A stretch of DNA of 41,401 bases from Prochlorococcus sp. AG-402-A21 (GTDB taxonomy: Bacteria; Cyanobacteriota; Cyanobacteriia; PCC-6307; Cyanobiaceae): contig QCHI01000012.1 of the NCBI GenBank assembly GCA_003279655.1, forward strand, positions 1 to 41,401. Direction: 5' to 3'. Under the pieces are notes generated by a model that was not told the origin of the DNA, did not search any database, and was given only the letters and a program-made list of their open reading frames with translations. Of the stretch, positions 22,725 to 25,861 are shown piece after piece. Position 1 is the stretch's first letter, and the number at the start of each line of letters is the position of its first letter. The position numbers were made by a program, and so were the translations under genes.

Positions 22725-22738
22725 GTATTGAATGATAC
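22725..22738. promoter_or_regulatory. NtcA box GTA-N8-TAC (left of pair, probably for cbiX-cobA)
   Basis: The sequence GTATTGAATGATAC is a perfect GTA-N8-TAC match to the binding site of NtcA, the global nitrogen regulator of cyanobacteria. It is palindromic and can serve either strand. It lies between divergent cbiX-cobA and nirA. Counting the usual distance leftwards, a start would fall near 22690, with an A/T-rich -10 region around 22697-22702. This suits the cbiX-cobA transcript and its roughly 100-base leader. The assignment to one direction is inferred. Confidence 0.75.
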
Positions 22739-22758: not shown

Positions 22759-22772
22759 GTAAAAACTGATAC
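22759..22772. promoter_or_regulatory. NtcA box GTA-N8-TAC (right of pair, probably for nirA)
   Basis: GTAAAAACTGATAC is a second perfect GTA-N8-TAC, centred 34 bases from the first. For a class II NtcA promoter the centre sits about 41.5 bases before transcription start, which predicts a start near 22807, 18 bases before the nirA ATG. The -10 position (about 22796-22806) reads TTAATTATAAA, A/T-rich but not a perfect TAN3T. The left half-site is also part of an inverted repeat TACCAAA/TTTGGTA (22736-22742 and 22755-22761) joining the two boxes. Confidence 0.85.
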
Positions 22773-22824: not shown

Positions 22825-24486
22825 ATGGTTCAATACTATCTCGAAGGCAAAAAACTAAATCAAGTTGAAAAAAATAAAGCTGCTAAGGATGGACTCGAAA
22901 TCGGAAAGGATATAGACAAATTTGCTGAAATGGGATGGGAGCAAATGGATAAAACTGATTTAGAATTAAGATTGAAATGGTATGGAATGTTTTGGAGACC
23001 CAAAACCCCCGGAAAGTTTATGTTAAGGTTAAGAATACCTAATGGAATAATCAATGCAGAACAATTAAAGGTAATTGCATCAATTGTTGCGAGATATGGA
23101 GAGAATGGAAGTTGTGATATAACAACCAGACAAAATATACAACTTAGAGGTGTTTTGATTAGTGATTTGCCTGAGATATTAAATAGATTAAAAAAAGTAA
23201 ATATATCAACAACTCAATCTGGATTTGATAATCCAAGAAATGTTACTGGAAATCCCATCGCTGGAGTTGATCCAGAAGAGATTATAGACACAAGGATATA
23301 TACATCAAAAATGCAAGATCATTTAACTAATGATGGTAAAGGAAACTCAGAATTTTCAAATCTTCCAAGGAAATGGAATACAGCTATAGCAGGCTCTAAA
23401 GATAATTTTCTTTTACATAACGATTTAATTTTTCATCCAGTTAAAATTAATGGGGTTTTAGGTTTTAGTGTTTGGATTGGAGGTGTACTTTCATCAGTAA
23501 TGAATGAATATGCAGTTCCGTTGAATGCCTGGGTTGAAGAAGAAAAAATTTATGAATTAACATCAATTATTTTATCCCTCTGGAGAGATAATGGGGAACG
23601 TAATATAAGACCTAAAGGTAGGTTTAGATTTTATTTAGATAAAATTGGCATTGAAAAATTTAGAGATCTTATCGAAAAACAATATGGAACATTAAAAGAA
23701 GATCCAGGTTCAATATTTTCAGATAAACCAAGGTCATTTTTTGGAATTCATTCTCAAAAACAAGAAGGTAAATATTTTGCAGGAATTCATGTGCCAGTAG
23801 GCCGTCTTTTGGCTGAAGATTTACAAGATCTAGCAAATATATGTGAGAATTTTGGTGATAAAGAAATAAGACTTACCGAAGACCAAAATATTATTATTAC
23901 TGGTATAGATACAAATCTAATTGAAGAATTTAAGGAGCAATCTATCTTACAAAAGTTTCCATTAGAACCAGAAAATATTGCCGCAGGTACTGTTTCTTGT
24001 ACTGGAAATACCTATTGTGGTTTCGCTCTGACAAATACAAAAGATCAAGCTTTAAAAATCTCGCATGAATTAGACAAAGAATTAGATTTGAAAGACGAAT
24101 TAAAGATTCATTGGACCGGGTGTCCTAATAGTTGTGGTCAAGCCTATATGGGAGGAATTGGTTTAACGGGTAAAAAAGCTAAAGACAAAGAAGGAAAAAC
24201 TGTTGAAGCTTATGATATAAGCATTGGTGGATCACAAGGGCCTAATTATAAATTAGGAGAATTAATAAAAAAATCTGTCCCTCAAGATGAATTAAAAGAT
24301 GTACTAAAAGATTTACTTATTTCAAATTTTGATGCAAAAGAAAAAATATTTTTAAGTAAAAAATCTGGTTCATTATCTCGATTTATGAATTGGTTTAGTC
24401 CTCTTGGCAAAGATAAACCGCTGATTAATCGAGCTAATGGCAGCCCCGACATCTTTTCCAAATTTATGAATCGAATTAGTAATTAA
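22825..24486 (+). CDS. nirA: Ferredoxin-nitrite reductase NirA
   Basis: Reduces nitrite to ammonium with six electrons from ferredoxin, using a 4Fe-4S cluster and siroheme. Cluster cysteines are C392, C398, C433 and C437 (SCTGNTYCG and GCPNSCGQA), the CX5C...CX3C pattern. DITTRQNIQLRG and the two ferredoxin-like half-domains are normal. The N-terminus LEGKKLNQVEKNKAAKDGLEI resembles marine cyanobacterial NirA, supporting ATG 22825; an out-of-frame ATG at 22806 lies at the predicted transcript start. Length 553. The context (NtcA boxes, cobA/cbiX, focA) favours nitrite over sulfite reductase. Its last 34 codons and stop are duplicated downstream (24588-24689), a striking oddity described separately. 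Confidence 0.95.
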   Translation: MVQYYLEGKKLNQVEKNKAAKDGLEIGKDIDKFAEMGWEQMDKTDLELRLKWYGMFWRPKTPGKFMLRLRIPNGIINAEQLKVIASIVARYGENGSCDITTRQNIQLRGVLISDLPEILNRLKKVNISTTQSGFDNPRNVTGNPIAGVDPEEIIDTRIYTSKMQDHLTNDGKGNSEFSNLPRKWNTAIAGSKDNFLLHNDLIFHPVKINGVLGFSVWIGGVLSSVMNEYAVPLNAWVEEEKIYELTSIILSLWRDNGERNIRPKGRFRFYLDKIGIEKFRDLIEKQYGTLKEDPGSIFSDKPRSFFGIHSQKQEGKYFAGIHVPVGRLLAEDLQDLANICENFGDKEIRLTEDQNIIITGIDTNLIEEFKEQSILQKFPLEPENIAAGTVSCTGNTYCGFALTNTKDQALKISHELDKELDLKDELKIHWTGCPNSCGQAYMGGIGLTGKKAKDKEGKTVEAYDISIGGSQGPNYKLGELIKKSVPQDELKDVLKDLLISNFDAKEKIFLSKKSGSLSRFMNWFSPLGKDKPLINRANGSPDIFSKFMNRISN

Positions 24487-24533
24487 TTCGATTTTATAAA
24501 AAATTATTTTTCTTACTTTTTAAATTTATGACT
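24385..24533 (+). repeat. Direct repeat, copy 1 (149 bases, nirA 3' end to focA-like start)
   Basis: Begins at the ATG codon (Met-Asn-Trp-Phe-Ser-Pro) inside nirA, runs through the nirA stop and a 41-base A/T-rich spacer, and ends just after the ATG-ACT of a FocA-like start. It is identical over 149 bases to 24588-24736, by base-by-base comparison. Outside the core, both flanks resemble their counterparts but with substitutions. Confidence 0.97.
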
Positions 24534-24689
24534 CAAAGTACTTCTCAAATGAGCTACGTCTTACCTAAAGATTCTATTTCTCGTTTCATGAATTGGTTTA
24601 GTCCTCTTGGCAAAGATAAACCGCTGATTAATCGAGCTAATGGCAGCCCCGACATCTTTTCCAAATTTATGAATCGAATTAGTAATTAA
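24528..24689 (+). CDS. Chimeric 53-codon frame: FocA-like N-terminus joined to NirA C-terminus
   Basis: An intact ATG-to-TAA frame of 53 codons between nirA and focA. Its first 15 residues (MTQSTSQMSYVLPKD) resemble the FocA start downstream (MTSSASQMDYVLPNE). The remainder (SISRFMNWFSPLGKDKP onward) matches the NirA C-terminus and is identical from Met-Asn-Trp to the stop. It arose from tandem duplication across the nirA-focA junction. It has the same 5' context as focA, so ribosomes that start focA should also start here. No functional domain remains: the FocA part has no membrane segment, and the NirA tail has no cofactor ligand. It could be a harmless relic, a translated leader for focA, or a small protein in its own right. 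Open reading is certain; expression is not known. Confidence 0.5.
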   Translation: MTQSTSQMSYVLPKDSISRFMNWFSPLGKDKPLINRANGSPDIFSKFMNRISN

Positions 24690-24736
24690 TTCGATTTTAT
24701 AAAAAATTATTTTTCTTACTTTTTAAATTTATGACT
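24588..24736 (+). repeat. Direct repeat, copy 2 (149 bases)
   Basis: Identical to 24385-24533 with an offset of 203 bases. It contains the chimeric frame's NirA-like tail and stop, the same A/T-rich spacer, and the first two codons of focA. The 54 bases between the copies hold the diverged FocA-like start and the diverged SISRF codons. Confidence 0.97.
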
Positions 24737-25642
24737 TCGAGTGCTTCTCAAATGGACTACGTCCTACCAAATGAATTGGTAGATGGAATGATTGCTGCAG
24801 GTGGCAAGAAATCATCTGTAAGCGTAAAAAACTTGCTAATAAGAGGCTTCTATTCAGGAGCAATTTTAGGTTTAGCGACATGTCTTGCAATTACTATAGG
24901 TATTCAATCTGGGATGCCTTGGTTAGGATCTTTTATATTTCCTTTTGGTTTTGCAAGTATCGTTCTTTTCGGTATGGAGCTTGTTACTGGTAATTTTGCG
25001 TTACTACCAATGGCCGTATGGGCTGGAAAGAGTTCTTGGTCTGCAACTGTAAGGAATTGGCTATGGGTTTGGATCGGTAATTTTCTAGGTACAGCATTTG
25101 TTGCCGTACTACTTTCAATTAGTTTATCTAGTGCTGGAAATGTAGATCCATTAACTGCTGCTGAAGGTGGAAAAGGATGGGCAGTTGTTGCAGCAAAAAT
25201 AATAGCTATACACAAAGCAAACACAGTTGTTAAATATGAAGCACTTGGAAGTACTGGTTTTTTCCTGGCATTTTTACGTGGAGTAATTGCAAACTGGCTG
25301 GTTTGTTTAGGTGTAACAATGGCACTTGTAAGTAAAAGTGTTCCAGGAAAGATACTTGCTTGCTGGCTACCTATAACTGCATTCCAAACAATGGGAATGG
25401 AGCACATAGTAGTTAATATGTTTTTGCATACAACTGGCCCTCTACTTGGTTCGGGTATTCCTTTTACAAAAGTAATTTTTTGGAATTTCTTACCAGTGAC
25501 GATTGGAAATATTGTTGGAGGAATGGTATTTATTGGAATGCTTTTCTATAGCACCCACAAAACTCCTATCTCTAATGTTTTACCAGACGTAAAAGATGAA
25601 AAATTAGAACGAGAGCTCGAAGCACAACTTGGTGCAAGATAA
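24731..25642 (+). CDS. focA: FNT-family nitrite (formate/nitrite) transporter FocA
   Basis: A 303-residue membrane channel of the formate-nitrite transporter family. Six hydrophobic segments are visible. Family features include NLLIRGFYSGAILGLATCLA, FGMELVTGNFALLP (the M-x-L-x-T/S-G-N motif in the second half of TM2), GNFLGTAFVAVLL, LRGVIANWLVCLGV and GMEHIVVNMFL. Position next to nirA means nitrite uptake is the probable role. Prochlorococcus FocA is generally thought to be of proteobacterial type, acquired in place of the cyanobacterial nitrite/nitrate permease. Start ATG 24731 lies at the edge of the duplicated segment, so its leader is duplicated. It is followed by a strong hairpin terminator. 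Confidence 0.93.
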   Translation: MTSSASQMDYVLPNELVDGMIAAGGKKSSVSVKNLLIRGFYSGAILGLATCLAITIGIQSGMPWLGSFIFPFGFASIVLFGMELVTGNFALLPMAVWAGKSSWSATVRNWLWVWIGNFLGTAFVAVLLSISLSSAGNVDPLTAAEGGKGWAVVAAKIIAIHKANTVVKYEALGSTGFFLAFLRGVIANWLVCLGVTMALVSKSVPGKILACWLPITAFQTMGMEHIVVNMFLHTTGPLLGSGIPFTKVIFWNFLPVTIGNIVGGMVFIGMLFYSTHKTPISNVLPDVKDEKLERELEAQLGAR

Positions 25643-25671
25643 AATTAAAAAAAATTAAATTTTAAACTAAA

Positions 25672-25710
25672 TTAAGAAAGCCTAGAAAGTTGTATTCTAG
25701 GCTTTCTTAA
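25672..25710 (+). terminator. Intrinsic terminator hairpin after focA
   Basis: A perfect 16-bp stem, TTAAGAAAGCCTAGAA pairing with TTCTAGGCTTTCTTAA, encloses the 7-base loop AGTTGTA. The 3' arm is U-rich in the transcript, although no long separate U tract follows. It lies 29 bases after the focA stop and is the clearest hairpin in the window, so nirA-focA probably end here. The remaining bases to 25861 are A/T-rich with no other feature that I can support. Confidence 0.8.
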
Positions 25711-25861
25711 TATGTCTACTATTTAATAGTTATTAATAGGGTTTTAAAAGATTTTCCATTAATCTCTACACAAATCAGATACTTGACTTGATCAATCAAC
25801 AAATAGTAAATTAAAAAATTACTCTGACTAATTATTTTCTAATCCACTAAATTTAAATTCT

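Follow-up and report, generated by a model that had tools for sequence, protein, structure and literature searches.

The nirA-focA junction of Prochlorococcus sp. AG-402-A21 carries a direct repeat, and within it a small open reading frame (ORF) stands between the genes for nitrite reductase and a formate/nitrite channel. The question raised by this locus is whether the frame is a by-product of duplication or a gene in its own right and, if the latter, what its product might do. The window analyzed here is the whole stretch of 41,401 nucleotides (contig QCHI01000012.1), and the features at its junction are as follows.

22825..24486, plus strand: nirA, ferredoxin-nitrite reductase, 553 aa (NF007125.0, E 1e-264, residues 2-507)
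24364..24483, plus strand: NirA C-terminal tail matching residues 14-53 of the small protein (E 4.6e-22, 93% identity)
24369..24571, plus strand: repeat unit, copy 1 (203-bp self-comparison)
24572..24774, plus strand: repeat unit, copy 2 (203-bp self-comparison)
24385..24533, plus strand: identical 149-bp core, copy 1 (exact match)
24588..24736, plus strand: identical 149-bp core, copy 2 (exact match)
24528..24689, plus strand: small gene, 53 aa, ATG to TAA (ORF; row 1 of family alignment A1; profile E 3.2e-25)
24731..25642, plus strand: focA (nitM), formate/nitrite channel, 303 aa (PF01226, E 1.3e-62)

The predicted identities of NirA and FocA in the window are firm, and the last 46 residues of NirA fall outside the NirA model NF007125.0. 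Comparison of the window sequence with itself confirmed the perfect 149-bp direct repeat that the first-pass annotation had described at this junction: the two cores are identical, with a mismatch directly beyond both ends. They belong to a full tandem unit of 203 bp whose two copies adjoin with no base between them and share 189 of 203 positions, the 14 differing positions all sitting near the unit edges; no second repeated 40-mer was found elsewhere in the window. Each 203-bp unit runs from the tail of one coding sequence with its stop codon, across 41 bases of spacer, into the opening codons of the gene that follows. The gene order reads nirA, the 53-codon ORF and focA, and in the same orientation focA follows the small gene after a gap of 41 bp. 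The intermediate frame, 53 codons from ATG to TAA, is as it had been described. The nirA tail also lies in the repeat as claimed, but its true content there is 33 codons plus the stop rather than the last 34 codons.

An assembly error had been raised as a possibility, and short-read assemblies are indeed error-prone at tandem repeats; the junctions of other genomes were therefore examined. In the genus, the small protein was matched in 22 of 41 genomes and FocA in 23. Setting aside G020, in which the FocA match covers residues 79-303 only, and the divergent outgroup G011, 21 complete junctions are left, of which 17 hold the small gene (two copies in G006) and four do not (G013, G027, G029 and G031). 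Five one-contig genomes (G002, G003, G005, G006 and G007) contain both the small gene and the repeat structure, with genome-specific variants in both repeat copies. Because the same structure is present in other genomes of the genus, these five included, the repeat cannot be put down to chance or to an assembly artefact, and the latter explanation retains a negligible probability for the repeat itself. The four zero-copy junctions, on the other hand, match contigs (L093, L094, L095 and L097) from AG-named cells, which are taken as single-cell assemblies and in which the repeat could have collapsed. In the flank tree, whose G011 branch is implausibly long (3.6) and whose rooting is unsure, the zero-copy G029 joins the one-copy G014 (support 100) and the zero-copy G013 joins G016 and G005 (support 59), a placement that fits deletion between the repeats. 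The clade of the window is presumably low-light clade I (LLI), following the label of the first-pass annotation.

The perfect identity of the cores had suggested either a very recent event or active retention. Comparison of the copies in 17 genomes speaks against the former. Over the linker, motif B (described below) and stop codon (71 bp), the NirA-tail copy and the small-gene copy differ by 0.71 positions on average within a genome, with zero difference in 14 of 17 genomes, whereas the same copy differs by 4.5-4.6 positions between genomes; in a 42-bp spacer window, the corresponding values are 0.65 and 2.6-3.7. Random cross-genome pairing of copies never gave a difference as low as that observed within genomes (0/10,000). 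Motif A (40 bp), in contrast, is copy-specific, with 5.9 differences within a genome and 3.0 for the same copy between genomes. Copies that are alike within genomes and different between them imply an older duplication homogenized by gene conversion, not a recent one. This pattern indicates that copy identity is maintained by gene conversion, which ends where each copy keeps its own sequence. A recent duplication was thus rejected, given the wide occurrence of the structure in the clade and the co-evolution of its copies, and the suggested retention of the intact segment is supported.

Outside this clade, the small gene is found without the duplication. In the outgroup G011, NirA has only a short terminal tail, FSSFMNWFSELGESSTG, and focA is preceded by a separate ORF of 47 aa; such an ORF is held by all 21 fetched outside-clade junctions with focA (L052, L062-L071 and L074-L083), and no small ORF was found at the fetched loci L072 and L073, which are without focA. 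The free-standing gene outside the clade mostly encodes 44-49 aa and occupies the same place before focA. The consensus of a 28-row alignment is MQSxSxxxDxFSRFVNWLSxLGxDKPxINRxxGSxDxFSRLMNRISx. The window protein, itself one of the 28 profile rows, matches the family profile with the E value listed above and is 47-60% identical to the rows from outside its clade. In view of this alignment, the window protein is a relative of an older gene. In the predicted small protein, two copies of an 11-residue motif, DxFSRhhNxhS, are joined by a linker, and in the window they are located as follows.

24570..24602, plus strand: motif A of the small protein, DSISRFMNWFS (two-motif analysis)
24651..24683, plus strand: motif B of the small protein, DIFSKFMNRIS (two-motif analysis)

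Two motif copies are present in 64 of 69 distinct ORFs and agree on average at 5.5 of 11 positions, against a mean of 1.1 and a maximum of 4.9 with permuted columns; it should be considered that the test pattern itself selects for both motifs and that the five ORFs not fitting it were dropped. As helices, the family forms of motifs A and B are amphipathic (shuffle P 0.007 and 0.006), and the window forms are less so (P 0.02 and 0.03). The pN/pS ratio is 0.41 for the 47-aa type (15 pairs), 0.25 for the 44-aa type (5 pairs) and 0.17 for the whole ORF in the clade of the window (6 pairs), with a significant synonymous excess in each set; the ratios come from non-identical pairs of equal length with pS of no more than 0.72. 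These ratios indicate purifying selection on the small gene as a protein, although its first 15 codons in the clade of the window carry 6 changes (P 0.33), too few to prove selection. The earlier suggestion that a small protein is encoded is likely to be right.

Two traits of the small gene are specific to the clade of the window. Its opening 14 codons, MTQSTSQMSYVLPK, are similar to the start of focA, MTSSASQMDYVLPN, in agreement with the initiation context that the two genes had been said to share, and its 3' half doubles as the end of nirA. In the outgroups, the small gene stands free and NirA shows one short motif or none, so that the long tail of NirA is the derived piece. The description of the frame as a chimeric mini-gene therefore holds for the start shared with focA, but the C-terminal part was not copied from an ancestral nirA tail. 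Judged from the sequence comparisons, the ORF is the clade version of an old conserved microprotein gene of the focA (nitM) locus, with parts exchanged with both neighbors. A likely path is that recombination at motif A fused nirA with the small gene, and that a tandem duplication of the segment from the motifs through the stop and spacer to the focA start then restored a free-standing small gene, now with a start of the focA type.

At E up to 1, neither Pfam nor NCBIfam assigned a family to the window protein; PHROGs gave no match for it and a best E of 0.065 among the 28 family members, and the best PDB match (E 0.34) concerned unrelated molecules. Across 299 genomes of the order, 80 matches were obtained, all labelled family f1 (the f1 share of the 299 is not given). 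Second small-gene-like matches on other contigs were seen at G136:C90:3698-3829, G138:C9:65695-65802 and G069:C26:16681-16794, the last with two internal stops. A phage origin was rejected: tblastn of one relative gave no match among 50,697 phage records. An intact 48-aa small gene is carried by two viral contigs of IMG/VR (L143:5977-6123 and L144:5977-6123) that have the same ORFs as each other; one of their ORFs is PsbA-like by eye, and neither nirA nor focA is among the ORFs of the fetched 12 kb. Two such contigs are not enough to claim a phage origin.

The distribution of the family was then compared with that of the channel. Among 201 family genomes, the small-gene profile matched 85 and FocA was found in 98; both occur in 84 genomes, the small gene only in one (G159), focA only in 14 and neither in 102 (Fisher p 2e-40, kinship ignored). 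One of the 84, G089, is matched in its NirA tail only. Each of the other 83 small genes, all placed by coordinates, immediately precedes focA in the same orientation, with a median gap of 41 bp; the gap of 244 bp in G006 spans its second small-gene copy. In G111, G122, G137, G158 and G165, a divergent NirA (44-47% identity) is encoded at least 1.7 kb away, and the small gene still adjoins focA (junctions were read in four of the five, where the ORF of G111 was missed by the search pattern). In G159, a 74% complete genome, the small gene is at L184 (G159:C21:22693-22809), with no focA among the adjoining listed ORFs. In general, the predicted small gene tracks focA. FocA without a small-gene match was found in ten g9 genomes by profile search (junction read in five) and in G063, G094, G115, G369 and G427, the nirA-focA spacer of the last being 4 bp. 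G403 and G419 have a partial or no match and broken spacers, and G409 has no match and no NirA in the upstream region.

The same motif is met at the end of NirA. In G191 and G203, NirA ends in GGTDFFSRFMNRISN, and a free small gene is also there; in G414 and G089, it ends in GGTDFFSRFMNHISN and GGKDPFSRFMNAISG, respectively, and the free gene is absent. The G414 protein looks related to those of G191 and G203, perhaps through one origin. Counting that of the window, at least three lineages thus have predicted NirA proteins with the motif in a C-terminal tail, and in G089, G414 and four genomes of the clade of the window, the NirA-borne motif is present in the absence of a free gene. A single FSxFMNWFSxLG forms the end of several other NirA of the Prochlorococcus type, and in eight genomes, the profile found the single NirA motif alone (E 5.8e-6 to 2.7e-4). 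On the other hand, most Synechococcus-type NirA that were read lack the motif despite the presence of FocA and the small gene. An extension of NirA is present in 58 of 86 genomes with FocA versus none of the eight fetched genomes without it, in which NirA ends no more than about ten residues past the conserved core; these lists were made by eye from non-random loci with kinship ignored, omit the divergent NirA of G111, G122, G137 and G165, and count the borderline G269 as without. G004 and G017, with no focA, no small gene and no NirA tail, resemble the LLI genomes with type II NirA and no focA that have been described (PMC6370341).

Published work on the channel suggests what this association may mean. 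NitM of MIT9313 and CC9311 is reported to be inactive when expressed alone and active minus its C-terminal 21 residues, which are missing from the active NitM of CC9605, and the authors proposed an activating mechanism on this C-terminal region (PMC4390861, 2015). The equivalent codons of the window are located as follows.

25577..25639, plus strand: last 21 focA codons (by position; autoinhibitory in relatives according to PMC4390861, and putatively here by analogy)

These alpha-cyanobacterial channels are of the same family as the one studied here, and the small gene is not mentioned in the available portion of that report. In G242 and G370, FocA ends without the C-terminal segment and no small-gene match was found at E up to 1; the joint loss probably represents one event in one lineage. 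Their 244-bp nirA-focA spacers (L171 and L172) contain, by eye, out-of-frame pieces resembling the small protein. The five g9 FocA C-termini that were read have the segment in altered form, and G063, G094, G115 and G369 have an ordinary segment and no small-gene match. A strict rule linking the segment to the small gene was therefore rejected, since the segment persists in several genomes that are without the gene.

Based on the results presented above, the best-supported mechanism is one in which the microprotein would help the FocA/NitM channel by docking NirA, by relieving the C-terminal autoinhibition, or both, which would couple nitrite import to its use; because the support is genomic association, we give this reading an even chance. 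The main evidence against it is the set of FocA-bearing lineages that have no small gene; the small gene of G159 and of the two viral contigs, with no focA beside it, and the Synechococcus-type NirA without the motif also count against it. The motif would dock on the pentameric FocA channel at its cytoplasmic face, so that the microprotein, together with any NirA that has the motif, would bind the channel. Binding would relieve the reported autoinhibition, and the bound channel would couple nitrite entry to nitrite reduction, much like the gating of FocA by PflB in E. coli. In that model, a formate/nitrite channel is gated by the enzyme that handles its substrate, but PflB is a large enzyme acting on the N-terminal helix of FocA, and no microprotein is involved (PMC11841067). 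A fuller version, which we put forward tentatively and hold to be doubtful, is that the microprotein is both an activator of the autoinhibited channel and a channel-reductase adaptor, that the motif is a transferable FocA docking tag which NirA would acquire repeatedly by recombination with the adjacent gene, and that gene conversion in LLI would keep the NirA tag and the microprotein matched as a self-updating pair.

The small protein might instead act on NirA only, as an inhibitor or stabilizer like NirP1, the linkage to focA merely reflecting the operon. The presence of the motif on NirA in several lineages agrees with such a role, as does the reported absence of NirP1 from Prochlorococcus and most marine picoplanktonic Synechococcus (PMC10907346). 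This account is nevertheless unlikely: the small gene occurs without FocA in G159 only among the 201 genomes, yet NirA without FocA exists (e.g., G004, G017 and G065), and the small gene stays with focA where nirA is divergent and elsewhere. NirP1 is alike in being a small protein of cyanobacteria with a link to nitrite reductase and nitrite; it differs in being mostly 76-86 aa, with a predicted beta structure, an invariant Cys and three Trp (PMC10907346, in the part available), and membership of the window protein (53 aa, no Cys, one Trp) was rejected. Membership in PirN was likewise rejected, as DUF1830, the PirN content according to the accessible text of PMC13205821, is not found in a protein without any Pfam family at E up to 1.

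Apart from a function of the peptide, the ORF might work as a translated leader or as a spacer and thereby govern the translation of focA or the processing of the mRNA, with an inert peptide as its product. Possible regulatory signals of the locus are listed below.

22725..22738, plus strand: NtcA-type site GTAN8TAC upstream of nirA (pattern match)
22759..22772, plus strand: second NtcA-type site GTAN8TAC upstream of nirA (pattern match)
24469..24493, plus strand: hairpin across the nirA stop codon (10-bp inverted repeat; -11.2 kcal/mol, z -2.5)
24672..24696, plus strand: hairpin across the small-gene stop codon (same 10-bp inverted repeat; -11.2 kcal/mol, z -2.1)

With 6 GTAN8TAC sites observed in the window against 4.0 expected, the two before nirA are only a hint. 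A pattern scan of the nirA-focA spacer detected neither a sigma-70-like nor a GTAN8TAC site, and an internal promoter between the two genes was rejected for this reason. A terminator-like hairpin of 17 pairs lies downstream of focA (25671-25711), where the scan gave the minus strand. The stop-codon hairpins, equalled by 5 of 200 (nirA) and 8 of 200 (small gene) shuffles, together with the 5' context common to the small gene and focA in the clade of the window, favor a leader, and in WH7803 the small ORF and nirA differ in time course on one mRNA, which was read as RNA processing (PMC9430850). However, pN/pS lies below 1 with a synonymous excess in three sets, the motif is in frame on NirA, and a comparable hairpin is absent at three outgroup junctions (z -0.2 to -0.9), which makes an inert leader quite unlikely. 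There is a slimmer chance that the duplication in the clade of the window is a passive relic, its copies alike only through tandem-repeat recombination. The copy number of 0, 1 or 2 among relatives, the extension of conversion over the non-coding spacer and the few changes in the first 15 codons would suit a relic, but motif A stays copy-specific, pN/pS is 0.17 across the whole ORF, and the outgroups have the gene without the duplication.

Returning to the reading of a microprotein that serves the channel, some members of the family may have been encountered before. In WH7803, SynWH7803_RS12335 is a 44-aa ORF between nirA and nitM, co-transcribed with both and raised 194- and 239-fold; it was described as similar to NirA of NATL2A and CB0101 and as perhaps evolved from nitrite reductase (PMC9430850). 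Its place and length class are those of the family, to which it is likened by position and length, and 44-aa relatives were found at the same nirA-focA position; capture of the NirA tail would explain its similarity to the NATL2A and CB0101 enzymes. The helices predicted for it at residues 5-17 and 34-43 fall about where motifs A and B would lie. The available part of that account presents an induced ORF and gives no family, motif, focA link or mechanism. An uncharacterized gene between nirA and focA is also co-expressed in MIT9313, and a cyanophage scaffold has an unknown gene between the two, with the gene order inverted (PMC8115048); both are likened to the small gene by their position beside focA. 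In the open-licence literature, to the extent that its texts were available, no published function was found for the small gene, which is known there only as an induced, uncharacterized ORF, nor was an answer found to how autoinhibited NitM is switched on.

Nitrite release and uptake in Prochlorococcus are reported to vary by strain, the absence of FocA being one proposed reason (PMC10470740); as WH8102 is without FocA yet does not release nitrite (PMC10470740), this link is not strict. The microprotein encoded beside the autoinhibited channel is a concrete and testable candidate for its activator, and the locus describes concerted evolution between an enzyme tail and a free microprotein. The conservation of such a tiny gene beside the channel suggests that nitrite import may be tied to nitrite use in many marine picocyanobacteria.
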